24,406 nucleotides of DNA. It comes from a virus. The stretch covers positions 1-24,406 of IMG/VR virus record IMGVR_UViG_3300022866_000042, one strand, 5' to 3'. Made by a program: the position numbers and the translations under genes. Position 1 is the first letter of the stretch; the number at the start of each line of letters is the position of its first letter. Below, piece after piece: positions 4,391-24,406 of this stretch. The notes beneath the pieces are model-generated. The model ran no database searches and was not told where the DNA came from. It saw only the letters and a program-made list of their open reading frames with translations.

Positions 4391-4409
4391 TTAATTTAAT
4401 TTAATTAAT
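4391..4409. repeat. Short TTTAA tandem repeat in a gene leader
   Basis: About three and a half TTTAA/TTAAT units fill the 14-nt gap between two minus-strand genes and reach into the end of the upstream one. There is no Shine-Dalgarno motif here, so this A/T-only stretch is the ribosome landing zone of the cupin-like gene. It is probably just an unstructured leader. Confidence 0.5.
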
Positions 4410-5811
4410 AACTAGATACAACGTAGTTGGACCCAACGCTCCATAGTTCTTTAGAACCGCCTTTGTCGGTAATATCGTCTGTTGAAAATGTAACCGTAGC
4501 AAAGAATCCTTTTATTCCAGACACTTCTCCCCCGTAAATAACTTCTCCTTCTCTAGCTGGGCTATTGTTTATTAAATTAGCAAAGTATTTGTTTTCTTTT
4601 CTATCAAAACCTAATCTATATATAACGCCGTCGTCGGTGTATGTTTGATTGTAACTAGGTACTTGAGCTGTGGTATCATTATAGCTAACCCAGCCGTCAT
4701 TGACAAAGTCAAATTGTTGACTATCAGAAATAAAACTGGTTACTTGCCACCCGTTATCGCCTTCGTAGTTAACTGTTTGAAAATTCTTAGACACTGATGA
4801 TCCTTCGTTAAATACAAATGTTATATTTGAAGGTGCATATTCCCCATAAAAGGTACATCTGTTTGAAGTTGCATTAGAATAATGCTGGTATATAGAGCCA
4901 TTTTTAAAACTATAAAAATTATTCCTAAGACTAGTTATAAAAGTAGGTTTATAAGTAAAGAAGCTATTCCACCCGTTAACTAACTCGTCAAAGGTTAATG
5001 TAGCGTATGTAGAAGCTGAATTAGAATTTTCTTGTGTAGCAGAGGTATTTTGTAAAGATAACGTATAATTTTTGTTATGTATATCGTACCCTCCTACCAT
5101 AACCCCAGACTCACCCACGTTGATCATGTTGTCCCTAAAATAGTCTATCATACCATAAGAAGATATTTCTGTCAAGCCGTCCATAGAGAGCCTTAAAACA
5201 GCGTTTCTATCCTTGTCCGTAAAGTATTTTTGGTATCCATAAACAGCAAAGCTTTCTGGATTTCTGCTAATGCCATAATTACCAGAGTAAGGCACTATTT
5301 GTCCTATAACCTGTTGTGATGAAGTTATAGCTGCGTTGCCTTCTGCAGAATATATAGCGTCTTTATCTATCAATGCTCTACTTACTTTGTTTTCTTGAAA
5401 AACTATTAAGTTAGTGTCTTCAGCATAAAGCTTTTGTATTGATCCATTTACCGGGTCTACAGCCTTAGTGATATTTTCTCCTACAGAAAATTGGTTAGTA
5501 TTGTTAATACCAGTCCTTGAATTAAATATACCTGAATATATTAAAGCATTGGGTCTGTATTGCTGACTAGATTCCTCTTCTACTATGTAAGCTTTAACGC
5601 CTAGGTCCACTTGTGTATTGTTATAACCCCCTCTAATTCTAGACTCTTCAACCAACCAGTTGTTCACGCTTGCAGGAAAAGCGATGCTGCCCGGAAATCC
5701 AGATTGATATGGGTAGCCATTAGGCCACACTGGCTGCGGAGTAGCGTCGTCGTTTGTAACCTGCTTTAGCCAAAACGAATTAAAGTATGATATTTCTATT
5801 GCTGCAGCCAT
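4405..5811 (-). CDS. Stabilization / tail-hub-like structural protein, beta-propeller type, 468 aa
   Basis: The product is beta-rich, with Asn/Ser/Tyr-rich strands throughout. It includes blocks I associate with the second half of the stabilization protein of crAss-like and marine flavobacterial phages: NALIYSGIFNSRTGINNTNQ near residues 88-107, AEDTNLIVFQENKVSRALID near 130-149, and YGYQKYFTDKDRNAVLRLS near 191-209. The repeated strand-turn pattern suggests a propeller. It follows the 1081-residue stabilization-like gene by 38 nt and probably forms part of the same tail hub at the portal or tail vertex. A receptor-binding contribution of the more variable C-terminal half is possible but not shown. 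Family assignment is from memory of conserved blocks. Confidence 0.6.
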   Translation of the reverse strand: MAAAIEISYFNSFWLKQVTNDDATPQPVWPNGYPYQSGFPGSIAFPASVNNWLVEESRIRGGYNNTQVDLGVKAYIVEEESSQQYRPNALIYSGIFNSRTGINNTNQFSVGENITKAVDPVNGSIQKLYAEDTNLIVFQENKVSRALIDKDAIYSAEGNAAITSSQQVIGQIVPYSGNYGISRNPESFAVYGYQKYFTDKDRNAVLRLSMDGLTEISSYGMIDYFRDNMINVGESGVMVGGYDIHNKNYTLSLQNTSATQENSNSASTYATLTFDELVNGWNSFFTYKPTFITSLRNNFYSFKNGSIYQHYSNATSNRCTFYGEYAPSNITFVFNEGSSVSKNFQTVNYEGDNGWQVTSFISDSQQFDFVNDGWVSYNDTTAQVPSYNQTYTDDGVIYRLGFDRKENKYFANLINNSPAREGEVIYGGEVSGIKGFFATVTFSTDDITDKGGSKELWSVGSNYVVSSY

Positions 5812-5849: not shown

Positions 5850-8800
5850 TTATTGTCGCTCAAGAACAGTTACATAATATGTAAAGTTTGGTTCCATATT
5901 TGTAAATTCATATTGCATAACATCTGCCGATCCTCCGCTTGGAAATTGAATATTTTCAGGTACTCCTGGATTAGTTCCTATTTCTGCCCTTCTAAAGCCG
6001 ATGGATGTAAGCGGGTTAGGCCAATTACTGTTTCTTGTTATTTTACAAGTCATTTTATTGTCTGCAGGCAAAGGTATTGCTTCTGCAGTTTCTACGCACC
6101 CGTTTACACATAAATAAGTATAACCTAGGTTAACTACCATATTTGTGTCAATTGGTGACACTGTAGTAGTTATCCATTCTATATTAAACTCTGTCCCTCC
6201 GGCGTAAGGACTAATTACTGTTGCTTGTTGATTTATGCCTTCGGTTATGCCAAAAGAAGCAAGCACTTGAAAAACTTGCGATTGGGCACCAGAGGCGTCT
6301 TTTAAAATGACATCAATTGCGTAATTGCCTGTTTTTTTAGCAGTATTATTTGGATTTGTTATTATTCCTGAAGTAGGGTCTATTACAAATTCATTTTCAG
6401 GAACCGCGATGGAGCCATTATAAGCTATCCAAATTATAGACCAAGTAAGTCCTAATTGTGTTTGATTTCCATTAATATTTGAGCCGTTTATACCTGTCAT
6501 TTGCATTATTGGAAAGCCTAAAGGCATATCGAAAAATGTTTTTACAGTAGGGTTTGGAGTATTAGTTATTTCAGGGGCCACGTTTTCCACAGACCCAGTA
6601 AATTGTAATTGTTCTGTGGTTAATCCAACAGTGTCTTCGCAATCTATAGCAAAAGTAAAAGACCTATTAGCTACATCAAATACAGAGTTTGAGCCATAGT
6701 AAAATAAAGCATTTGTAAATATATCAAATTGGTAAATAGAATTAGAAGAGGGTAATATAACAAACTCATTTGTTCTATTAACACCATTACCATCTATAAC
6801 AGAGCTAAACGCAAAGTTAACAAGCGTAGTTATAGGCACCCCCCCGTTATTTTCTATAAAAGCTTTATTTACTATTTTTGTTCCAAAAGCCATACCTTCG
6901 TTTTGGCTGTACCCGCCGTTTAGATTTATTGTTGCTGGCCCTGAAAATCCTTCGTCAATTGCTGTATTCAATACAGATATCAAACCAGTTGAACTTGTTT
7001 CCCAATATATGTCCAATAAAGATACTACAGGAGATGTCTCAAAAACCCCTAGTGTTTCATAGAATGCAGTGGCTATAGTCCCTATAGCAGCCTCCGTGCT
7101 TACCCTACCTATTAAAGGGTTGGTTTCGCTTTGGTAAAATTCAGGGTAAGTAAGACTTGATCCCTGCGTACCATTATAATTTGTGTCTGAAACAGTAGAT
7201 ATAGAAACTACAGTATCGGATAATGTTCCTGGAAAATATTGCTCGTTTGAATTAGAGGTCGGTGCCACTCTCCCAAAAAGCTGTACACTGCTTCTAAACT
7301 GTCTTTGGTCAGGCCCTACTTCAGATAAATCCCTTGGGACCTTGTTAATGTTGTCATTTATTAAAACAATATTTGCTGTTTTACCTATTTCTAAACTTGC
7401 AGAGCCTGTAAAACTAGCAGGGTAGCCGTCTAAGATACCGGGTAAGTAAACATTGTAGTAATCTTGTTCCTGTTGTCTTACAACTATTTTATATGAGTAC
7501 CACCCCAACGGATTAGTTAAACTGTATAATCCAGGATAACCAGGTATATCTGTTTGCGTTTTGCTTGGTATTGCTTTGTTAAACAAAATCCTTAAAGCAT
7601 ACCCAGGCCAGTATAGTATATCTGTTATAGGGCCGCCATAATAAGGAAGATATATTGTTGAACCACCATATTGAATGCCCTCTTCGTTATCAGCAGTATC
7701 TCTTGATGAAAGTATTACAGATGATTGCCTGCCAAATTTATCAGATAAAACTACACCAACTTGATAATTTCTGTTTTGTTTTACCGTATGATTAGGATAT
7801 TCTGTTTGACTTTGGGGAGTAACAGCGGATGAGTTATAAGCTTTAGCCGAATACCCTACCCCGTAGTCTATTGATAAAGGAGGGGACATTTTATCGAAGA
7901 AGTTGCCATAAATAACTCTATTGCCAGAAACCTCTTGCGCTAAAGCCCTTGTTGGCACCTTATCGTATACCCTTGTTGTTTGGTCTGAAGGAAGAGTTTT
8001 ATATGGCTTAGTAGATATATAAGTAAAATCGTAAACCATCTTGTTTACATTTGACTTCATTCTACTAAACACGTTCTTAATAGGTATTGATTCAACCACC
8101 TTTATTGCTAAGCCATCAGATTCTTTATATAGTATATCTAAATCAGTGATATGCAGATCTGTGCCCGGATTTTCAGTTTCAAAAAGTATGTTTAATACTA
8201 TCTGGGTTACATTGTTTTCAACAAACTGAACAACAGTGCTCCTATAGGCTGCTTCTGAATCTCCTTCTAAAAAATAACCTTGTTGCTTAGGTATAAAACA
8301 TATTTGAGTGAACGGAGCTATTAAAGAATATTCTCCATCATCAAATTTATATCTGTAGCTAAATCTTATGAATTTATCTTGTAAATAGTTTGGATCACCC
8401 GCCCAGTTTTCATTATAACAATCGCCAGTTACTCCAGCCCCGCAAATTACCTTAGGGGCATCATTAGGCAAAAACTCCTCAGAGGGGTTGGTCATTGTAG
8501 AAACTAATGGCAAACCCTGAGCAATATTAACTAATTTAATGCTTTCTAAAGGGGCGGGCTTTGCTACAGAAATAGTATCTTCTGAAATATAATAAGTTGG
8601 ATTAGTTGCACTCCCGGGGTTTGCTAAATCAACATTTATTTTTCTTGGTTGATTCCTGTTGTCTGTCCAAAATAGCAGACTCTCTAATAAGTTTACTCCT
8701 GTTATTATGTTAGTTTTAGAAAAATTTAAAAACCTGCCTTCAACTAGTTTATTATAGTCTTTGGTAATTGTATTATACCTAGATATAATACAATTAGTAT

Positions 8801-9095
8801 TAGCCGGGGCAAAAGTTCTATCTACCGAGGCGTCTGTATAATCGGTTAAAAATAAATATATACTATTAGTAGCATTATCAGCCAAAAAGCCTATAACATC
8901 TATATTTGGTATGTTTAATACAGTAGATTGTATAATTGAATTACCCAATATGTTTTCCAATGCACCCACATCAGAACCCTCTGAGCGGCTTATAGATACA
9001 TTCTGAGCATTTCTATACTCTCCAGTAGGAACAAGTCTGTCGTCCAGGTCCTTGTTCATCTTGGATTTTATAAAGTTGTTTTTAATTTCAGCCAT
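5850..9095 (-). CDS. Large stabilization / tail-hub protein with cadherin/Ig-like and FN3-like C-terminus, 1081 aa
   Basis: The N-terminus (residues 4-50) carries the block KNNFIKSKMNKDLDDRLVP followed by GEYRNAQNVSISRSEGSDVG and ALENILGN. I recognise this from the stabilization proteins of crAss-like and related phages. Residues 50 to about 520 are propeller-like beta repeats (FLADNATNSIYLFLTDY, ESLLFWTDNRNQPRKINVD). Around residues 838-950 there is a cadherin/Ig-like domain (VAPEITNTPNP ... FVIDPTSGIITNPNN ... YAIDVILKDASGA). The last 120 or so residues resemble an FN3-type domain ending YVTVLERQ. The protein is much longer than plain stabilization proteins, and the added C-terminal domains are candidates for surface adhesion. 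It starts 4 nt after the upstream structural gene. Family call is moderate; domain limits are approximate. Confidence 0.62.
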   Translation of the reverse strand: MAEIKNNFIKSKMNKDLDDRLVPTGEYRNAQNVSISRSEGSDVGALENILGNSIIQSTVLNIPNIDVIGFLADNATNSIYLFLTDYTDASVDRTFAPANTNCIISRYNTITKDYNKLVEGRFLNFSKTNIITGVNLLESLLFWTDNRNQPRKINVDLANPGSATNPTYYISEDTISVAKPAPLESIKLVNIAQGLPLVSTMTNPSEEFLPNDAPKVICGAGVTGDCYNENWAGDPNYLQDKFIRFSYRYKFDDGEYSLIAPFTQICFIPKQQGYFLEGDSEAAYRSTVVQFVENNVTQIVLNILFETENPGTDLHITDLDILYKESDGLAIKVVESIPIKNVFSRMKSNVNKMVYDFTYISTKPYKTLPSDQTTRVYDKVPTRALAQEVSGNRVIYGNFFDKMSPPLSIDYGVGYSAKAYNSSAVTPQSQTEYPNHTVKQNRNYQVGVVLSDKFGRQSSVILSSRDTADNEEGIQYGGSTIYLPYYGGPITDILYWPGYALRILFNKAIPSKTQTDIPGYPGLYSLTNPLGWYSYKIVVRQQEQDYYNVYLPGILDGYPASFTGSASLEIGKTANIVLINDNINKVPRDLSEVGPDQRQFRSSVQLFGRVAPTSNSNEQYFPGTLSDTVVSISTVSDTNYNGTQGSSLTYPEFYQSETNPLIGRVSTEAAIGTIATAFYETLGVFETSPVVSLLDIYWETSSTGLISVLNTAIDEGFSGPATINLNGGYSQNEGMAFGTKIVNKAFIENNGGVPITTLVNFAFSSVIDGNGVNRTNEFVILPSSNSIYQFDIFTNALFYYGSNSVFDVANRSFTFAIDCEDTVGLTTEQLQFTGSVENVAPEITNTPNPTVKTFFDMPLGFPIMQMTGINGSNINGNQTQLGLTWSIIWIAYNGSIAVPENEFVIDPTSGIITNPNNTAKKTGNYAIDVILKDASGAQSQVFQVLASFGITEGINQQATVISPYAGGTEFNIEWITTTVSPIDTNMVVNLGYTYLCVNGCVETAEAIPLPADNKMTCKITRNSNWPNPLTSIGFRRAEIGTNPGVPENIQFPSGGSADVMQYEFTNMEPNFTYYVTVLERQ

Positions 9096-12031: not shown

Positions 12032-13462
12032 TTATGCAGATGCAGTAAACAATACGAAGTTGTTAGCCGCTTGAACTACAAGACATCTTTCAGAAAGGAA
12101 GTGTACCTCCATTGCATCAAGATCAGAAGTGTAAGCTCCACCTACAGAACCAGTGATCCAAGATTTCATTCTTCTGTCGTCAGCTTGAGAAGCTCTGTAA
12201 CGAACATGTAAGAATGGTCTACGGATATTTGTTCCTAAAACTTGATCGTAAACTGTAGAAGTTCCAGCAGGAATTAAAACACCATCAATCCCAGATACAG
12301 TAACTCCACCACGTGTAGAAGCGTCGTTTAAGTATTTCCAGTCAGTCTTGTAGAAGTCATAAGAACCTCTTCTGAATCCAGAGAAACCTAAATTTAATGC
12401 CATTTCAGAAGAATTCTCGAATAATCCGTAAGCAGTTCCACCATTAGCTCCAGCGGAGATGCTAGCAAGCATATCGTCGAATCTTAAAGATGTGTCTCTG
12501 TTTAAGAATAACATGTTCTCTTCAATAGCTCCTTGAGTATCCAAGTTCTTAAGGATTCCATCAAATTCAGCTAAACCAGCGGCCCCAGCACTAAAGTTGT
12601 TTAGTACGTTACCTCTTGATTTAACAGCTGCAAATAAACCTTGAGTTCCTTTGATTCCATCGTCTGCAAGTGTAGAAGTACCAGAAACTAGTTCTCCTTC
12701 AACAACTGACATTTCTAAGTAGTCCTCAAAACGTAAACGAGTTTCAGATTCAGCTTTTAGATACCATAAGAATCCAGATGCTCCCTCTTCAGTAGCAACT
12801 TCAACCCATCCAATTTGAGCAGTATCTGATCCTGAGATAGCATACTTTTCTTTTATAATGATTGGAGAGTTATTGAATTGTGTGAAAGAAGGCGTTACAG
12901 ATTTGATATCCGCATCTGTAGTTCCTTTTTTGTATTCAGAACCATAAACAAAGATTTTAAGAGCTCCAGCTGTTGCACTTAATGTAGTCATATCAGCAAC
13001 TGTATAAGGCTTAACTGTAATAGTAGCCAAAGTAGATGAGGTATTAACACTGTTAGTAACAAAAACCTTAAGTTCAGCTCCTGTTGCTCCGTCCATAACT
13101 ACTAGAGTCTGGTGCTTAGAGATAACGTTAGCTACAAAGTTTGGTCCTGCTGTTGCATTTAATGCAAAAGTTAAAGTTGTTGCAGTTGCCTTAGATACAG
13201 TATTGTAAGCAATATGTAATCTGTTCTGCTCTGACCAGATAACCTGATCTGAAGTCATTGGCATTTCTGCTCCTACCATTCTTAAAAAGCCTGATAGAGT
13301 TCTGTTTCCATAACGCTCTACTTCAGCCTCATAGATTTCTGGTAAGTATTGTTGTGCGAAATCATTTCCTGATCCGTCTGCAAAGTTTAAATAGTTGCTC
13401 TCAAGAGCCTGTTGCTTCTGTGAGGGCTTAATTGACCCGTAAACGGGTGCTACTGCTGCCAT
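12032..13462 (-). CDS. Major capsid protein, 476 aa
   Basis: Size, composition and place directly after the scaffold gene fit an HK97-fold capsid protein. The N-terminal 85 residues include AQQYLPEIYEAEVERYGNRT and the conserved-looking MTSDQVIWSEQNRLH, as expected for the N-arm and spine helix region. Residues about 90-175 are a Thr/Ala/Val-rich beta insertion. The second half is helical and then beta, with LEMSVVEGELVSG and GFRRGSYDFYKTDWKYLND. It closes with YTSDLDAMEVHFLSERCLVV and QAANNFVLF. Codon use differs from the neighbours: AAC, TAC, TTC, ATC, GTT, TCT and CGT are common, a pattern expected of a very highly expressed gene. It is followed by a strong terminator. No procapsid protease is visible nearby. 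I am fairly sure of the call. Confidence 0.8.
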   Translation of the reverse strand: MAAVAPVYGSIKPSQKQQALESNYLNFADGSGNDFAQQYLPEIYEAEVERYGNRTLSGFLRMVGAEMPMTSDQVIWSEQNRLHIAYNTVSKATATTLTFALNATAGPNFVANVISKHQTLVVMDGATGAELKVFVTNSVNTSSTLATITVKPYTVADMTTLSATAGALKIFVYGSEYKKGTTDADIKSVTPSFTQFNNSPIIIKEKYAISGSDTAQIGWVEVATEEGASGFLWYLKAESETRLRFEDYLEMSVVEGELVSGTSTLADDGIKGTQGLFAAVKSRGNVLNNFSAGAAGLAEFDGILKNLDTQGAIEENMLFLNRDTSLRFDDMLASISAGANGGTAYGLFENSSEMALNLGFSGFRRGSYDFYKTDWKYLNDASTRGGVTVSGIDGVLIPAGTSTVYDQVLGTNIRRPFLHVRYRASQADDRRMKSWITGSVGGAYTSDLDAMEVHFLSERCLVVQAANNFVLFTASA

Positions 13463-14651: not shown

Positions 14652-17060
14652 TTATCTAGGCGAAAATTGCTCTAAGTTAAACCCGCCTAGTGAGTCATTA
14701 CCTTGAGACTCAAAGTTTTTAGGTAATAAATCATTTTTTCTTTGATCTATTAACTCTGATTGCTGAGTACCTTGTATTTTTACTCTTTTATCTTTCCTGT
14801 CTTCTGTTTCCGCTTCTTTAGTTATTTCCGCATTAGCCCTAACTTGAGCTAGTTGCATTTGATAACCAAATTCCTCGGCCATTAACTCTTTCTTAATTTG
14901 AGCCTCTGTTTGCATTCTTGTCATTTCAAATTGCGACTTAGCTTGTTCAATGCTAACTTTCTCAGCGGTTAACGCTTGTTGTTTTTGAACTTCAAACATT
15001 GCTGCAGCTTCAGCTGTTCTTGAGTTAGCCTCTGCTTGTGCATTTATATTAGCTATTTGGGCAGCCTCCACTGCTGCTTGCTTGCGTTTTCTTTTTAATT
15101 TAATAAGCTGATTAGCTAATTTTAAATTCTTTATTTGTCTAATGTCTATTGCATCTTCTAAATCTATACCCCCAGATTGCAAAGCAATTTGAATGTTTTG
15201 TTCTAACTGTGCTTTTTCTTCGTCATCCGGCTCTAATTCTAAGTATATGCCAAAATCGTGTAGGTTTAAGTTTTGTATCTCTTTTAAAGTCTCTACATTA
15301 AATGTGGATATACTATTTGATAGTGAATTAGATGTCAATGAGAAGTTCAATACATCCGCTATTCTAAGAGATATATTTTCGCATGTCTTAAGCGTTAGGT
15401 ATAAACTAGCTTGTAATATGTGGCGAGTTGCTACATTCGATTGGTTAGCTGCCATTTTTTGTAATCCTAGTAAAGCATCTTTATCTGGGTTACTTCCATC
15501 TCTAGCTTCGTTTAATCCAGTTACGTCTCTTATCATTTGTAAATAATAATTGTACGTATTTATTAAAGAGCCTATTTTCGCTTGACCAGAAGATGAAGAT
15601 AATTCTTGAACTGGTATTTTACCGCGGTTCATCTCACCATCTTGCGTTAATGATCTACCAACAACGCTACCTGTTTGGAAATACATATTCAATGCTTCCG
15701 CTGGGTTATAATTTGTGCCATTCCCAAGATCAACCTCAGCTAATCCGTCCATATCTAAGAACACCCCATCAGGAACTATTCTAGACATAACTTGTTGTAG
15801 TTTAAGGTGCGTAAGCTGAATCATATCTGCAAACCCAGTTACCTTGCTAACTAAGCTTTCAATCCTGCCTTTATACATTCTAGGGGCAGTAATAGTGTAG
15901 TTCATTTTAACTTTTGTGGTATCAGCATATGGTCTTGTCATATTCTCAGCCATCTGCCACTCTAACATAGTGTTATTACCCAATACCTTAGCCCCACTAT
16001 ATAAAACCTCTATGGTTCTAGATACTTTATTAAAATTGTTGCTTTCAGGAGGATTAAAACTATCGTCTTTTTGTATTACCTTCTCTAAACCAAACTCAGT
16101 TTGTTTTATTTTAAATACCTGGTTCGAATAAGTCTTATATTCAAAGAATAGAACCTGCACCGTGTTTCCATCAAAATTTCCCCATCCAGTAACATAATTG
16201 TTATTTCCGGGCATATTCTGTATATTCAGTAGCTCCTCATCAGATATATCTGGGAATTGTTTCTTTAACTCAGGTATTGTGATTGCTTTCACTTCACCAA
16301 CATAGTATATGTCTTCGAAATTAGGATCTTCTGTGTAAGAATAAACCAAGTAGGCGGGGTCGACATAGTTAACTACAATACCTTCAGATTTATTAAAACT
16401 TGTTTTAACGCAACTTATACCTAATACTACTAAATCATGATTTAATCTTCTTCTTACTAGATCATATTTATTAGCAGCAAGGACATTGTTTATAGCTTCT
16501 TCTTCAGCTATCTCAACAGATTGCTTATAACTAAGTTGCATATGTAATTCAAGTTCTTCCCTTGTTTCCGGCAACTCCTCTGCGCTCAAAGGGGAGTTCG
16601 AAAAGTCTGCACCGGTTATTTGATTAGCTTTAGCTATCAAATCTTGCGTATACATATCACGCATTACAGATAAAGCATAATCTGTTCTTTTCTTTAAAGA
16701 TTCAGGATCTTGTGAAAAAGCTTTTATGTCATATGACTTTTGAGACATGCCATTCACTACGATGTCTACAAACTTAGATATAACAGGTACAGGCTTCCAA
16801 TCTAAATTAAGATAAGATAAATCTCCATTTATTGATAATTCATCTTTGTACTTTTGTATTGATTGCTCGCCTCTAGTATATAACCTTAATTGATGGAAGT
16901 TATTATAATTAGTTTGGTACCTATTATTAGTTCTCCCCTGATCAAACCATTCTCTTTCAATGGCCCTAGCTACTTGAATACCATACTCTGCGGATGCTTT
17001 TTCTACGTCGCTAACTACTTGACTTGGAAAAGAACTATTAGTATTTGTATATACGTTCAT
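14652..17060 (-). CDS. Portal protein, 802 aa
   Basis: The gene follows the large terminase without a gap and precedes the scaffold, the usual portal position. The N-terminal third has the portal-like pattern of helices around WKPVPVISKFVDIVVNGMSQ (residues 87-106). Mixed beta sections follow (NYVDPAYLVYSYTEDPNFED), and then a long helical stem and crown region including IRDVTGLNEARDGSNPDKDA. Residues about 654-755 are an Ala/Gln/Glu-rich coiled coil, suggesting a long barrel-type crown. At 802 residues it is larger than most portals and in the range I associate with crAss-like and flavobacterial podoviruses. It starts one base before the terminase stop (17061), with an A/T leader lying inside that gene's end. 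Role: dodecameric DNA channel and docking site for terminase and connector. Confidence 0.8.
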   Translation of the reverse strand: MNVYTNTNSSFPSQVVSDVEKASAEYGIQVARAIEREWFDQGRTNNRYQTNYNNFHQLRLYTRGEQSIQKYKDELSINGDLSYLNLDWKPVPVISKFVDIVVNGMSQKSYDIKAFSQDPESLKKRTDYALSVMRDMYTQDLIAKANQITGADFSNSPLSAEELPETREELELHMQLSYKQSVEIAEEEAINNVLAANKYDLVRRRLNHDLVVLGISCVKTSFNKSEGIVVNYVDPAYLVYSYTEDPNFEDIYYVGEVKAITIPELKKQFPDISDEELLNIQNMPGNNNYVTGWGNFDGNTVQVLFFEYKTYSNQVFKIKQTEFGLEKVIQKDDSFNPPESNNFNKVSRTIEVLYSGAKVLGNNTMLEWQMAENMTRPYADTTKVKMNYTITAPRMYKGRIESLVSKVTGFADMIQLTHLKLQQVMSRIVPDGVFLDMDGLAEVDLGNGTNYNPAEALNMYFQTGSVVGRSLTQDGEMNRGKIPVQELSSSSGQAKIGSLINTYNYYLQMIRDVTGLNEARDGSNPDKDALLGLQKMAANQSNVATRHILQASLYLTLKTCENISLRIADVLNFSLTSNSLSNSISTFNVETLKEIQNLNLHDFGIYLELEPDDEEKAQLEQNIQIALQSGGIDLEDAIDIRQIKNLKLANQLIKLKRKRKQAAVEAAQIANINAQAEANSRTAEAAAMFEVQKQQALTAEKVSIEQAKSQFEMTRMQTEAQIKKELMAEEFGYQMQLAQVRANAEITKEAETEDRKDKRVKIQGTQQSELIDQRKNDLLPKNFESQGNDSLGGFNLEQFSPR

Positions 17061-19286
17061 TTATATTATAATTTTTGAGGCACTACCATCGTTGTTGTAT
17101 TTTTTAATGCCCATATTAATAGGTTGTCTTTCTATTCTATTAGCTGGTGCATACCTTTGTTTATTACACGCCATTAATGCTAACCCTGAACTAATGGAAG
17201 CATCATGACTAGTTCTATTATTTATATTAAACCTTGCCCAATCTTCTAGCGTCCTTTGAAAATACATATCTCCATATCCAGTATCGGATAATCCTACATA
17301 TGTTTCAATATAAGATTCAATTGCGGCGGCGTGTGCTTGCTTTATATCTTCGCTGGAGTTTGGTATACCTCCAATTTCCTTTTCTGTTACAGATAACTTA
17401 TTCCAAATTTTGTCGGGTCTATTAATTGAAAAACCTCTATAGCCTCTTCTTTTAAAATGGTATAATAGCCTAGGTTTGTTATTCTCGGCTAATATTGGCA
17501 TTCCGTAAAAAACACAAGCCATTAAAACATCTTCAAAGAATATCTCCGCTGTTTGTGGTCTGGCTATGTATTCTAAAAAGAAATGGTTTGGTGGCACATC
17601 TTCCATAGAAAACTTAGTTAATCCAGATAGAGCGCCATTAGAACCTCTTTGATCTACAGTACCTGATATGTCATAACTATCGCACCCAAACGCTCCGCAG
17701 TGTTCATTACCAGGATGCTTCATGCCATTCTTTATTATTACCCGGTTTTGCATATCTTTAGGTGGAACCCAAGTTATTTTAAACCTTCCGTCCTTATGTG
17801 GGTTAAAAACAACTATAGAGTCTTGTACCCCATTTTCCCATGCAAAACTACCTGTAGTTACAATAGCTGTATTTCTAAGGTCTTCGTTGTAATCTATTTG
17901 CTGGTATATTTTAGTTAGATTAAAAAGCGATTGTTTTGCTTCATCTCTAAATGCGTGCTGTGTTGTTCTAGGAAACTGTCTGTAGTATTCATTAAGACCA
18001 TCTTGGTCATTTTTAAGACCTCCAACTTCATTCTCCCAGTATTCTATTACACCTATATCTATTAGTCCACCATCAGGCCCTATGGCTGGGGTTTTTGGAG
18101 TGTTGAATACAGGTATTCCATATTTATCAATGAATCCCTCGTAGTTCCATTCCATAGGCACGAACAAAGAATATAATCCTGAGCTAGTCTGTCCATTGCG
18201 GTTTCTTTTTTGTACGTCAGAATGTTCATATAGTTTTTTAAAGTTTTCCCCGCCTTTCGCCAAAGCGTTGGACGTTGATCCCATCATACATTTGCCTACT
18301 ATTCTTGATCCAAGTCTAAGACACGTTTTCGTGACCCTCCAGTTGTTTGTAATATTGTCCGGCCTTTCCCATTTGCCCGATTCGTCGTGAACGAGGAGCT
18401 GTAGTTTCTCCCCATCATAAGAGTTGTCCCCTGTGTTTTTCCAGTCAATCGTGGTATCAAGTCCCTCTCCGAAGTCGTCCATTTTAGAGTATTCTTTAAT
18501 CGAGTTCCTAGTGAGCCTTCTTGACGGTATCTTGTATGATAGTTCGGTCTTTGGTCTTTCCATACCGTCCTGGGTGGGTTTAAAGAAGAATGGGTAATTA
18601 AGACTGATGGGTACCACCTTGTCTGTAAACATCTTCTTTGCATCTGCTCCAGTCTTTGATAAAATACCAAATCTTGAATCTTTAGATATTGTGGCCTGGT
18701 TAACGGTCTCTGCTGAAGCCATAAATGAAAATCCAGAACGTCTGTTCTTAAGGTAGCACATTCCATAAGATCTATAGTCTGCCTTGCAAGCTTCCCAGAA
18801 ATAAAAGAATATTCTATTTGCCTCTCTATAATCGGCGGCACCAACGTCAATCTTAGTCCACTGCAGGTAGACATAATGAGAGCCAGTAATATAAGTTTCA
18901 GTGCCATCGTTATAAAACGAAAACCCCTCATCCCTGCATTTAAACTCTCCGTCGATATAATCATAAAACCTATTTTTAAAAGCATCTGGGTATTTATTCC
19001 ATTCATTAACGCTTTTTATTTTATCTATTTCTGATGGTATTAAAGACTTTTCCCAATACTGTTCTGATTTGTCTTTACTTCTTTTATAGCAGTCTTTTAT
19101 TAGTGGTAAAGCTACTTTTAAGCCCTGTATTTCATACACCTCACCAATTTCACCACTCTTACTAATAATAACAACATCATATTCTTTATTGTAGCCATAT
19201 ACCCACTTCTTGTGTCTATTATTACTTTTAATAACCGCTGGCCTTATGTAGTTATCTAATATAGAGTATAAATTTTGAGTATACAT
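17061..19286 (-). CDS. terL: Terminase large subunit, 741 aa
   Basis: This is the ATPase and nuclease motor for DNA packaging. The ATPase part has an arginine-rich, degenerate Walker A (KNRRSGFSFMASAETV, from residue 180) with no GKT/GKS. The Walker B is LQLLVHDES, with D301 and E302, and a coupling-type segment GSTSNALAKGG lies near 336-346. The nuclease part starts with GAFGCDSYDISG (D536), has acidic residues in EIFFEDVLMA (581-590), and a third acid in SHDASISSGLALMA (D695). The total is longer than most TerL (450-650 residues) because of a roughly 130-residue N-terminal extension. The start overlaps the previous stop as TAATG at 19286, and GGGGAG lies just upstream, one of the few Shine-Dalgarno-like stretches here. 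A 235-residue reading in another frame (18299-19006) is a shadow. Confidence 0.88.
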   Translation of the reverse strand: MYTQNLYSILDNYIRPAVIKSNNRHKKWVYGYNKEYDVVIISKSGEIGEVYEIQGLKVALPLIKDCYKRSKDKSEQYWEKSLIPSEIDKIKSVNEWNKYPDAFKNRFYDYIDGEFKCRDEGFSFYNDGTETYITGSHYVYLQWTKIDVGAADYREANRIFFYFWEACKADYRSYGMCYLKNRRSGFSFMASAETVNQATISKDSRFGILSKTGADAKKMFTDKVVPISLNYPFFFKPTQDGMERPKTELSYKIPSRRLTRNSIKEYSKMDDFGEGLDTTIDWKNTGDNSYDGEKLQLLVHDESGKWERPDNITNNWRVTKTCLRLGSRIVGKCMMGSTSNALAKGGENFKKLYEHSDVQKRNRNGQTSSGLYSLFVPMEWNYEGFIDKYGIPVFNTPKTPAIGPDGGLIDIGVIEYWENEVGGLKNDQDGLNEYYRQFPRTTQHAFRDEAKQSLFNLTKIYQQIDYNEDLRNTAIVTTGSFAWENGVQDSIVVFNPHKDGRFKITWVPPKDMQNRVIIKNGMKHPGNEHCGAFGCDSYDISGTVDQRGSNGALSGLTKFSMEDVPPNHFFLEYIARPQTAEIFFEDVLMACVFYGMPILAENNKPRLLYHFKRRGYRGFSINRPDKIWNKLSVTEKEIGGIPNSSEDIKQAHAAAIESYIETYVGLSDTGYGDMYFQRTLEDWARFNINNRTSHDASISSGLALMACNKQRYAPANRIERQPINMGIKKYNNDGSASKIII

Positions 19287-19558
19287 TATTTAGATCTCCC
19301 CTCTGCAAAGCCTTTAAAAGCAACCCCTTTAGATACCGTCAATGACGAATCCAGCATTGCTTGTTCGTTTTCAATTCTTTCAAGAATCTCAAAAGCATCG
19401 AATACTGCTAACTTTTTAGTGGCAGCAGCGTTCTTTAGCTTATCAGCGGTAAGGTCATCATCTGAATCTACAATAGCTTCCCTAGCCACTTTTATTAATT
19501 CCTCAACTGCTTTGTGCCCAGCTAGGATTATTTTTTTCCTCGTTTCCTTTGGATCCAT
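19286..19558 (-). CDS. Putative terminase small subunit, 90 aa
   Basis: A small, fully helical protein (KIILAGHKAVEELIKVAREA near residues 9-28; KLKNAAATKKLAVFDAFEIL near 41-60) placed directly ahead of the large terminase with a TAATG overlap. I recall proteins with the same AGHKAVEEL and NAAATKKLA blocks in this place in other marine phages, but their role has mostly been assigned by position. No helix-turn-helix is obvious, and the protein is shorter than usual small terminases (130-180 residues), so it could be another head-assembly helper. The start lies 56 nt inside the upstream gene, an unusually long overlap here. No later methionine would leave a sensible protein, so this start is preferred. 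Confidence 0.4.
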   Translation of the reverse strand: MDPKETRKKIILAGHKAVEELIKVAREAIVDSDDDLTADKLKNAAATKKLAVFDAFEILERIENEQAMLDSSLTVSKGVAFKGFAEGRSK

Positions 19559-20108
19559 ATTTAATTACGATATCATTTGATTTCATACAATACAATTTAT
19601 GCCCGTCTATTACAAACTCGAACTCACTACCCGGCGTGTAACCTACTAATGCTCCAGGATTGATTCCTAGCACTTCTAATGAACTATTACCGTATTCTAG
19701 TATACCAATAAGCTTTTGCTCTTTTTCAAGCGATAAGCTATCTTTATTTTTTATAGGGGCTATAAAGCACCGGTTGTTAATTGTATTCCAACTACCTGAT
19801 TTTCCGTATAAATATATCTGGTCTAAAGCGCAGAAGTACAATCCATCAATAAACATTGATCTGCTATCTTTTTGCTCGCCTTTCATATTATAAAACCTCC
19901 TAAATACATTATGATGTATCACTATTATATCACCCTTTTTTATATCCGTATTAAACGCCAAAGGTACTTCTACCACTTCAGCAAGGTTATTTACAGATTT
20001 AAAACTTTCTATTGATGTATTTGTAATAAGGGTTTTATCTCCTATCTTTTTTTCATTATCATAACGACCACCAACTGGCTTTATTATGAAATCAAAAACA
20101 CTCTTCAT
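19503..20108 (-). CDS. Tandem GroES-like (co-chaperonin fold) protein, 201 aa
   Basis: Both halves follow the strand order of the GroES barrel. Half one (residues 5-105) runs FDFIIKPVGGRYDN, then a flexible segment GDKTLITNTSIESFKSVNN in the place of the mobile loop. AEVVEVPL and IKKGDIIVIHHNVFRRF follow (compare AEVLAVG and VKVGDIVIF in bacterial GroES), and then GLYFCALDQIYLY. Half two (112-185) runs CFIAPI, LIGILEYG, LGINPGALVGYTPGSEFEF, and DGHKLYCMKSNDIVIKYG. The last is close to the GroES end strand pattern. No hydrophobic GGIVL-type loop is obvious, so binding to GroEL is uncertain. The C-terminal 16 residues overlap the next gene. Start overlaps the upstream stop as TAATG. The fold is inferred by pattern; an unrelated beta-barrel is possible. 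Confidence 0.45.
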   Translation of the reverse strand: MKSVFDFIIKPVGGRYDNEKKIGDKTLITNTSIESFKSVNNLAEVVEVPLAFNTDIKKGDIIVIHHNVFRRFYNMKGEQKDSRSMFIDGLYFCALDQIYLYGKSGSWNTINNRCFIAPIKNKDSLSLEKEQKLIGILEYGNSSLEVLGINPGALVGYTPGSEFEFVIDGHKLYCMKSNDIVIKYGSKGNEEKNNPSWAQSS

Positions 20109-21764: not shown

Positions 21765-22019
21765 TTTTTTACCACACTTCCATTTTCTTCTGGAATAATC
21801 ATTTGGACACATGCCTTTTTCGTCTGGATTTTTGCACTTTTTAATACCCGCAGATCTAGCACAATAAGACTTTTTCCTAGATCCTCCTTCTGGTTGTGGG
21901 CTTTTAAGAGTGCCCCCTGTTTCTTTTTTGTATTTAGCTTTTTCAGCTGTAGTCATACCTGCCTTCTTTTCGTTAGAAGACATTTTCATAAGCGGAGAGT
22001 CTGGTTGTACGTATGCCAT
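21762..22019 (-). CDS. Small basic four-cysteine protein (DUF6321-like), 85 aa
   Basis: The N-terminal 45 residues are Lys/Thr/Gly-rich (MTTAEKAKYKKETGGTLKSP). The C-terminal 40 hold four cysteines in a basic context, C53, C62, C71 and C82 (KKSYCARSAGIKKCKN, KGMCPND, RRKWKCGKK). The SYCARSAG...RKWKC pattern resembles the small phage domain catalogued as DUF6321, as I remember it. Four cysteines could bind one zinc ion, making a small nucleic-acid-binding module, but no function is established. The start is fused to the endolysin stop as TAATG. Confidence 0.55.
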   Translation of the reverse strand: MAYVQPDSPLMKMSSNEKKAGMTTAEKAKYKKETGGTLKSPQPEGGSRKKSYCARSAGIKKCKNPDEKGMCPNDYSRRKWKCGKK

Positions 22020-22474
22020 TATATTATTTTATAAGTTGTTTTACCATTTTGTTTGTACGCCTTTAATGATCGTCTTCGGTTTTCTTCATTAGACGCATAA
22101 CTTACATGCACCCAATCAGGATTTTTATCATCCCCAAACTCCCAGATTAATTGATCAAAATCTAAGTTGTCTTTTATATAATTAAACATTTCAGCATTTG
22201 TTTTATGCCCAAATGTATCATCTAAATCTATAGCTCTGCCTTCACAGTGTTGAGATTTGACACTTCCACCTATTGCGGAATTTAATTTTTTACTTCTATA
22301 AAATGAATTTATTTTTATAGGTCCACCCACCCATTCTCTAAGCGACTCAAATACTAACTCTGCAACAACTTGCATGTTAACTAAATGATATGCTTCAGGC
22401 GTATTATCTATACCTAATCGTAAAGCTGTTCTTGAATAAACAGCTTCTTTATCAGATATATGCTTGCTTATCAT
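22019..22474 (-). CDS. M15 family peptidase, endolysin (D-Ala-D-Ala peptidase type), 151 aa
   Basis: The product contains the M15A core: KINSFYRSKKLNSAIGGS (residues 54-71), then SQHCEGRAIDLD with zinc ligands H76 and D83. WEFGDD follows with the likely catalytic E112, and then WVHVSY with the third ligand H123. The length matches a single-domain phage endolysin or virion peptidase cutting peptidoglycan peptides. There is no signal peptide, so it needs a holin. The start at 22474 overlaps the end of a 50-residue membrane protein gene by 4 nt (ATGA), a typical holin-endolysin pairing. A host-like carboxypeptidase is unlikely given the context. Family assignment is firm; the exact bond cut is inferred. 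Confidence 0.85.
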   Translation of the reverse strand: MISKHISDKEAVYSRTALRLGIDNTPEAYHLVNMQVVAELVFESLREWVGGPIKINSFYRSKKLNSAIGGSVKSQHCEGRAIDLDDTFGHKTNAEMFNYIKDNLDFDQLIWEFGDDKNPDWVHVSYASNEENRRRSLKAYKQNGKTTYKII

Positions 22475-23125: not shown

Positions 23126-23572
23126 TTATCGTTCTTTATCTTTGTTTACGTTATTTATTGATGTTTGAAGTACTTTGTCCATATACGTTTTGCCTAACAT
23201 TATACTATTCCTTCTTTGGCTTGTTGGTATATCTTCTTCCCCAAGCATAATACGATACATTCTACTTATTAGTTGTCTACACTTAAATGAAACTTTATAA
23301 ATATGATATTTTTGAGTTGTATGATTTCTTTTTCTCCAAACCGTAATCCAACCCTCTATCAATAATCTGTTCCAGCGTTTATTGTCCCAACTGTAAGCAT
23401 ACGTACCGATCTTATAATCTTGTTTGGTAAAAAAATTCATACAATCAAAGTAGATCAGTAATTCTAAATCCGCGTCTTTTAAGTTATTGTTCCTACAGGC
23501 CCATTGTCTTATTACTCGATAATGTTTTAGCAAGTTTAGTTCTCTAACTTCTCCCGCTTCTAGCCTTTTCAT
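23126..23572 (-). CDS. Putative winged-helix (MarR-like) protein, 148 aa
   Basis: The protein is basic and rich in Arg/Lys/Trp/Tyr. Helices come first (LLKHYRVIRQWACRNNNLKD, LELLIYFDCMNFFTKQDYK). A likely recognition region and wing follow: YSWDNKRWNRLLIEGWITVW, then RKRNHTTQKYHIYKVSFKCR. A basic helical tail ends it. The layout DLELLIYF, then FFT..DY, then RW..LL.EGWI, then the K..YKVS strand matches winged-helix proteins of the MarR type as I know them from marine phages. It may regulate late genes or bind packaged DNA. It is translationally coupled to groES (ATGA overlap at 23569-23572). Confidence 0.45.
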   Translation of the reverse strand: MKRLEAGEVRELNLLKHYRVIRQWACRNNNLKDADLELLIYFDCMNFFTKQDYKIGTYAYSWDNKRWNRLLIEGWITVWRKRNHTTQKYHIYKVSFKCRQLISRMYRIMLGEEDIPTSQRRNSIMLGKTYMDKVLQTSINNVNKDKER

Positions 23573-23829
23573 AGAACAACAACTACATCCTGTAGTTTTA
23601 TAACGTGATAAATTTCTTTATCAATTTCTATTTTATGTCCAGCATGACGATCATAATAAATGTGATCACCTTTTTTTATTCCAGCAGTGTCATTACCTAC
23701 TGAAACTACATCAGCTAATATATACCTGATTTCTTGTTCTTCGTTCTTAGATAAAATTAAACCACCTTTGGTTTTAACAGTACCTAACTTTGCTTTCTGT
23801 ATTATTAAATTACTACCTATTGCCTTCAT
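23569..23829 (-). CDS. groES: GroES-like co-chaperonin, 86 aa
   Basis: The sequence follows the Cpn10 layout from end to end. It starts with strand MKAIGSNLIIQKAK and a mobile loop TVKTKGGLILSK (residues 17-28), in which LIL at 24-26 matches the GroEL-binding IVL tripeptide. Then come ADVVSVGNDTAGIKKGDHIYY (compare GEVLAVG...VKVGDIVIF), and last IYHVIKLQDVVVVL, which matches the final ESDILAIVE strand. At 86 residues it is slightly shorter than the bacterial form (about 97). It overlaps the groEL end by 17 nt and the next gene by 4 nt, so the three are probably translated together. It would cap the viral, or the host, GroEL cavity. Confidence 0.82.
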   Translation of the reverse strand: MKAIGSNLIIQKAKLGTVKTKGGLILSKNEEQEIRYILADVVSVGNDTAGIKKGDHIYYDRHAGHKIEIDKEIYHVIKLQDVVVVL

Positions 23830-24406
23830 TAATACGTAAGTTATTAATTACACAATTTGTAGATAATATAGTTGTTGCTACAGATGCCGCATTCTTTAAT
23901 GCGCTTTTAGTAACTAGCAAAGGATCTATAATACCTGCTTTAATCATATTAACTGTTTCACCAGTTATTACATTTAAGCCAATCCCAAGCCCTTTTTTAG
24001 GTTCCTTGTATTCTATACCAGCATTATCTAATATAGTCTTAAACGGAGCCTTAATGGCCTCTAGGAGCGTTTCCTCCCCTATTGTGTCGGCATATATAGT
24101 TTGAGAAGCATTTAATAAAGCAATTCCGCCTCCAGGTACAATACCTTCTTTAATCGCCGCTTTAGTTGCGCATATTGCATCCTCAACTCTATCTTTCTTT
24201 TCTTTTAATTCAACTTCTGAATTAGCCCCTACTTTTACTATTGCTATTTTAGCGGATAATCTAGATAATCTTTTTTCTAGCTTAATTATTTCGTAAGGTT
24301 CCTTAGCTAATTTTAACTTAACTTTTATATCCTTAATTGTTTTAACTACTTCTTCAGAAGGCTCACCTACTTGTAATATAGTTTCTTCGTCTGTTGTAAC
24401 GCTTTT
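23813..24406 (-). CDS. groEL: GroEL-like chaperonin, C-terminal part (gene runs off right edge)
   Basis: The last 197 residues of a group I chaperonin are visible; the N-terminus lies outside. Clear family segments, numbered here from the window edge, are KLEKRLSRLSAKIAIVKVG (42-60), VELKEKKDRVEDAICATKAA (65-84) and GIVPGGGIALL (88-98). D76 matches the ATP-hydrolysis aspartate (Asp398 in E. coli). Next come GLNVITGE (143-150, matching YNAATG) and IIDPLLVTKSALKNAASVA (159-177), whose D161 matches Asp495 near the nucleotide. The C-terminus is CVINNLRINEGNR and lacks the Gly-Gly-Met tail. The catalytic residues are kept, so it should be an active ATPase, yet the sequence is much diverged from bacterial GroEL. 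The stop is at 23813-23815, 17 nt inside groES. Confidence 0.88.
   Translation of the reverse strand, partial: KSVTTDEETILQVGEPSEEVVKTIKDIKVKLKLAKEPYEIIKLEKRLSRLSAKIAIVKVGANSEVELKEKKDRVEDAICATKAAIKEGIVPGGGIALLNASQTIYADTIGEETLLEAIKAPFKTILDNAGIEYKEPKKGLGIGLNVITGETVNMIKAGIIDPLLVTKSALKNAASVATTILSTNCVINNLRINEGNR

Follow-up and report, generated by a model that had tools for sequence, protein, structure and literature searches.

We identified a phage chaperonin locus in which groEL precedes groES; the locus is real, under selection, and syntenic among related phages. The two genes probably equip the phage with a GroEL/GroES cage of its own that is driven by ATP and serves a phage protein; the likeliest client is the 51-kDa capsid protein encoded in the same stretch of DNA. 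This stretch, the window, is the entire record IMGVR_UViG_3300022866_000042 (24,406 bases), both ends of which are contig ends, and it belongs to a marine phage of Bacteroidetes-type bacteria. The questions of why some phages carry a whole folding machine while most borrow that of the host, and of which protein needs the phage machine, are testable in this group.

In the window, where ORF identities were assigned from profiles and predicted models, the groEL-groES pair lies on the minus strand and precedes the genes for lysis, packaging, and virion structure. The 3' part of groEL (positions 23813 to 24406; 197 codons and a stop) reaches the contig end, past which its 5' part lies. According to the ORF coordinates, it overlaps the start of the complete groES (23569 to 23829; 86 amino acids [aa]) by 17 nt (23813 to 23829). 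The next gene downstream (23126 to 23572; 148 aa; phrog_17028), of unknown function, shares 4 nt with the 3' end of groES, and a gene for an M15-type endolysin (22019 to 22474) is also located downstream of groES. The same strand carries genes for a second co-chaperonin (19503 to 20108; 201 aa; phrog_13932 family), a 90-aa protein with no assigned function (19286 to 19558), the terminase large subunit (17061 to 19286; phrog_6681, E 6e-159), the portal protein (14652 to 17060; phrog_6547, E 4e-145), and a virion structural or putative major capsid protein (12032 to 13462; 476 aa, 51.4 kDa), which is the candidate client. Thus, a single small gene separates the second co-chaperonin from the terminase. 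No tRNAs were found in the window.

The groEL ORF (24406 to 23813; 197 aa) matches positions 296 to 487 of PF00118 (Cpn60_TCP1; E 5.5e-24), with a score of 85.2 bits that exceeds the cut-off of 34.3, as well as phrog_5725, "chaperonin groEL" (E 1.3e-46). The equivalent of the catalytic aspartate D398 of Escherichia coli is residue 76 of the fragment, within the motif RVEDAI, and the equivalents of G414-G416 and D495 in the nucleotide site are likewise present. These matches confirm the proposal of the earlier note that the ORF is a GroEL C terminus with its key ATPase aspartate. The window holds only this C-terminal part, ending in the equatorial domain, and most of the apical domain was read from relatives. 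The C terminus is devoid of a GGM tail. The stretch from G416 to D495 comprises 68 residues in the window and 67 to 70 in relatives versus 79 to 85 in bacteria, a shortening of about 12 residues; it includes E434, S463, and V464, at which the two rings of GroEL make contact. Judging from these sequences, the double ring of the phage GroEL is possibly changed or weakened.

The adjacent ORF (23829 to 23569) matches positions 3 to 92 of PF00166 (Cpn10; E 3.1e-12; 46.8 bits, exceeding the cut-off of 21.1) and phrog_3188 (GroES; E 2e-11), and it is indeed, as had been claimed, a complete GroES within a phage late region. This single-domain co-chaperonin begins with MKAIG, which is kept in relatives, and its mobile loop (GGLIL) contains the hydrophobic tripeptide LIL, with G22 and L23 invariant among 34 sequences. 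Binding of GroEL by this loop is predicted from the motif. A structural model of the protein resembles solved GroES (3nx6; Z 11.4, 62 residues aligned, rmsd 1.3) and T4 gp31 (2cgt_O; Z 9.1, 63 aligned, rmsd 1.6). The roof loop (VG to KKGD) is shortened to about 6 residues; three Bacteroidetes have about 10, and E. coli has 15. The mobile loop exceeds theirs by a few residues.

A scan of IMG/VR led to the identification of 80 relatives, the nearest being 72 to 74% identical; these contigs are mostly fragments and carry no completeness estimate. groEL is followed by groES with an overlap of 1 to 38 nt in all 79 relatives with both genes readable, most commonly 17 nt (29 of 79 loci), so the overlap noted in the window is real; the fetched stretch of the eightieth relative stops just past groEL, which places it outside this count. 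The complete GroELs of the relatives are 513 to 523 aa long and contain all three domains. All 80 relatives have D398 and D495, and every relative that covers D52, D87, G88, and T89-T91 (GDGTTT), which lie outside the window's fragment, has these residues as well. The dN/dS ratio for GroEL ranged from 0.018 to 0.141 in 14 pairs of relatives, and that for GroES ranged from 0 to 0.26, with the higher values coming from pairs with very few changes. The locus is therefore under strong purifying selection in relatives. Their apical face, which binds the client and the lid, differs from that of bacteria at Y199, Y203, L234, and V264; Y203 is mostly replaced by H, L234 by Q, and V264 by M. These altered sites weigh against the cage proposed below. 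P33 in the nucleotide loop (E. coli positions 30 to 33) is an alanine in all 68 relatives covering it; the equivalent residue is also alanine in the GroELs of Maribacter phage Panino and Callevirus and tyrosine in that of Elemovirus.

The earlier note had described a complete virus-encoded pair. Both genes are present, but the account of the folding genes was incomplete, as the window also encodes the second, double-length co-chaperonin at 19503 to 20108, which is new here. This protein aligns along its entire length with phrog_13932 ("co-chaperonin GroES"; E 8e-19), and its homologs in Elemovirus and Panino are annotated as GroES or cpn10. Its AlphaFold model (pLDDT 76; pTM 0.73) has chloroplast Cpn20, a tandem Cpn10, as the best PDB match (Foldseek E 6.7e-5), and 160 of its residues align with Cpn20 chain 7ekq_R (Z 9.3, rmsd 4.5) at a sequence identity of 11 to 12%. 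Taken separately, the modeled N-terminal half (residues 1 to 104) resembles Cpn10 4pj1_U (Z 7.4, 84 aligned, rmsd 2.8) and the C-terminal half (residues 105 to 184) resembles Cpn10 8wuc_a (Z 8.2, 77 aligned, rmsd 2.1), although Z values near 8 may reflect merely a common arrangement. The C-terminal half, in which the loop is short, is related to bacterial GroES by profile comparison (probability, 86%), which gave no Cpn10 match at the sequence level for the N-terminal half; a Pfam search with the whole protein from the window gave no match. The likeness of the N-terminal half to Cpn20 comes from the model alone, and the match of the protein to Cpn20 is no sign of common descent. In 27 of the 28 sequences, this half keeps a mobile-loop-like tripeptide that is LIL or closely resembles it; the window has LIT. 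The protein is thus modeled as a second co-chaperonin of two Cpn10-like halves, with the assignment of the N-terminal half depending on the model (pLDDT 51 to 92 by block).

A homolog of the long co-chaperonin, gp096, is encoded by phage phi18:3; its C-terminal half passes the Pfam Cpn10 cut-off (E 8.5e-8), and it aligns with the window family across the N-terminal half (probability, 93%). The gp096 gene is located two places before the terminase gene, and no GroEL match was found in the complete 71-kb genome of phi18:3. An initial impression from tblastn that the long co-chaperonin is strictly tied to GroEL (only GroEL-bearing phages were recovered) is contradicted by the profile search and this phi18:3 region. 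A long gp31-like co-chaperonin appears to be a wider trait of the packaging module, and the groEL-groES pair, which only some members of the family carry, would reflect either gain or loss. The long co-chaperonin probably assists head assembly in the manner of gp31; in phi18:3 it would depend on the host GroEL, and in the window phage it and GroES may form shared lids or take turns as the lid. phi18:3 consequently offers a natural comparison between a cage that is borrowed and one that is owned.

Group I chaperonins enclose a client protein beneath a heptameric lid. Homology, catalytic residues, intact frames, and selection in relatives lead us to regard the pair as the phage's own chaperonin of this type. 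Its GroEL subunits would assemble into an ATP-hydrolyzing ring to which a phage protein binds in its unfolded state, and the phage's own GroES would close this ring and encapsulate the client. The two genes are probably expressed on one message, in which their overlap may couple the translation of GroES to that of GroEL. The main client would be the capsid protein at 12032 to 13462. The closest functional parallel is T4 gp31, a phage co-chaperonin with a GroES-like fold and, as in the window, a shortened roof loop; T4 supplies only the lid and uses the host GroEL, whereas the window phage encodes the cage too. gp31 lacks roof loops and gives a larger chamber, features that are believed to permit gp23, the 56-kDa capsid protein, to fold (PMC6318259). 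The gp31-like changes in the roof and mobile loops of the phage GroES, together with a capsid candidate of 51.4 kDa, make a capsid client plausible by analogy.

Twelve of 17 long contigs picked for a related capsid gene carry groEL, a co-occurrence that is confounded by shared descent. The remaining five are all fragments from which groEL may have been cut off, and we rejected their interpretation as losses; one (G006) starts with an apparent groES, and the other four have a co-chaperonin gene 4 to 8 kb from the contig start. In cells infected with phi38:1, methylated GroEL peptides were found, and the GroEL and putative capsid protein of this phage were detected in free-virion samples, which bears on expression rather than on function (PMC13288928). 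The capsid protein of phi18:3, the phage without GroEL, is a distant homolog (24%) of that in the window. The suggestion of the earlier note that the client is poorly served by the host machine is tentative, given that phi18:3 keeps the second co-chaperonin without a GroEL.

The pair may instead act as general extra chaperonin capacity for phage enzymes and tail proteins or, during infection stress or cold, for host proteins, and the capsid would then not be a special client; we regard this explanation as fairly unlikely. It accords with the presence of GroELs in many unrelated phages, some of them nested among bacterial sequences, and with the action of literature-tested phage chaperonins on endolysin. 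The chaperonins of phages EL, OBP, and AR9 were tested on other substrates, endolysin among them (PMC7185714, PMC9598537), and are reported to be co-chaperonin independent (PMC9598537); hence, the capsid need not be the client. These are phage-encoded relatives of GroEL, but the window's group has its own lid and possibly two, and it has cultivated relatives (i.e., Elemovirus, Panino, and phi38:1). The linkage of the pair to one capsid/terminase lineage and the retention of the second co-chaperonin beside the terminase point to head assembly rather than to a general role, although shared descent confounds both arguments.

Two further possibilities assign the long co-chaperonin a larger part. 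In a three-part chaperonin, a GroEL with a remodeled ring-ring interface would work with a roof-poor GroES and a Cpn20-like double lid, forming mixed lids of seven domains (e.g., three doubles and one single) for head proteins. We consider this quite unlikely; lids of such a kind are otherwise known from chloroplasts. It is slightly more doubtful that the second co-chaperonin, and not the 86-aa GroES, is the lid for head assembly, leaving the groEL-groES pair to other clients. The proximity of the long gene to the terminase, its retention in the GroEL-less phi18:3, and the mobile-loop-like hydrophobic tripeptide of its N-terminal half (27 of 28) are in line with such a role. Conversely, the short loop of its C-terminal half and the lack of a sequence-level Cpn10 match for its N-terminal half speak against it, as do the overlap of groES with groEL and the canonical loop of GroES.

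The gene order distinguishes this locus from its bacterial counterparts. Among bacterial GroEL loci, groES came first in 30 and groEL came first in 1, with no adjacent groES in the fetched stretch of another 49, in agreement with the statement that bacteria nearly always have groES ahead of groEL. The phages with groES first are Immutovirus, Callevirus, and Bacteroides phage DAC19, and those with groEL first are Elemovirus, MW202828, Panino, and the window's group. In a careful GroEL tree of bacterial and phage sequences, built without the long-branched EL, Dulem, and crAss rows, the groEL-first phages fall on one side of a branch (support, 97/94; 98% of bootstrap trees), Callevirus is the next lineage (98/96), and DAC19 and Vibrio phages sit among bacterial GroELs, with DAC19 placed among Bacteroidetes sequences. 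The window's fragment was placed only in a quick tree that included these rows, where it lies inside the IMG/VR clade and EL GroEL forms a very long, distant branch. MW202828 lies outside the groEL-first clade in the quick tree but joins it beside Panino in the careful tree with a long-branch warning, so its exact place is unsure; the internal order of Elemovirus, Panino, and MW202828 is likewise unsure because their branches are long. On sequence grounds, the groEL-first phages represent one clade outside bacteria. This separate clade and the reversed order uphold the view that the locus is not a recently captured bacterial operon, and we rejected such a capture. Marine et al. (2017, ISME J) reportedly found that the order of groEL and groES in virioplankton tracks GroEL phylogeny.

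We find it scarcely credible that the partial groEL is the remnant of a decayed gene or comes from an assembly chimera of host and phage: the contig end cuts the gene and hides its 5' part, but the order groEL, groES, M15 peptidase, long co-chaperonin, small gene, terminase, portal, and capsid recurs in the complete genome MW202828, the synteny is the same in independent contigs, the nearest proteins (72 to 74%) are from phages, bacterial GroELs are only about 37 to 43% identical to the full GroEL of a close relative, and the GroELs of relatives (full length with three domains in those at 72 to 73%, by proxy for the window) are under purifying selection.

The groEL-first arrangement is stable, family-wide, and already present in annotated records. 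Elemovirus (Flavobacterium phage vB_FspP_elemoF_6-3D), Panino, and MW202828 (Caudoviricetes sp.) share with the window this gene order, homologous capsid proteins, and a second co-chaperonin gene, and the terminase and portal proteins of Elemovirus and MW202828 are also homologous to those of the window. The GroELs of Elemovirus and Panino are only about 41 to 42% identical; unlike in the window, the pair of Elemovirus is on the strand opposite the structural genes, and a 121-nt gap separates groEL and groES in Panino. Callevirus (phi38:1 and Calle_1; Pervagoviridae) and Immutovirus, like the window, exemplify phage-encoded pairs in flavobacterial phages, but they have the bacterial order, with a gap of 282 nt in Callevirus. 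Among a group of Bacteroidetes phages that includes phi38:1, 36 genomes were previously found to carry GroEL (Nishimura et al. 2017, PMC5332604).

In Panino, the GroES that follows GroEL (8767 to 9033) is annotated as hypothetical, and the "co-chaperonin GroES" of the record is the long co-chaperonin elsewhere in the genome. In DAC19, the ORF directly before GroEL (2218 to 2481) is GroES by profile, and both it and GroEL are annotated as hypothetical. Elsewhere in the window, two minus-strand ORFs (4405 to 5811 and 5850 to 9095) match the same structural family, phrog_14478 (1474 positions), which is encoded by one gene in Elemovirus and MW202828 and by two open frames in several other relatives. 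As these other relatives are also split, the split in the window looks like a recurring trait rather than a frameshift error.
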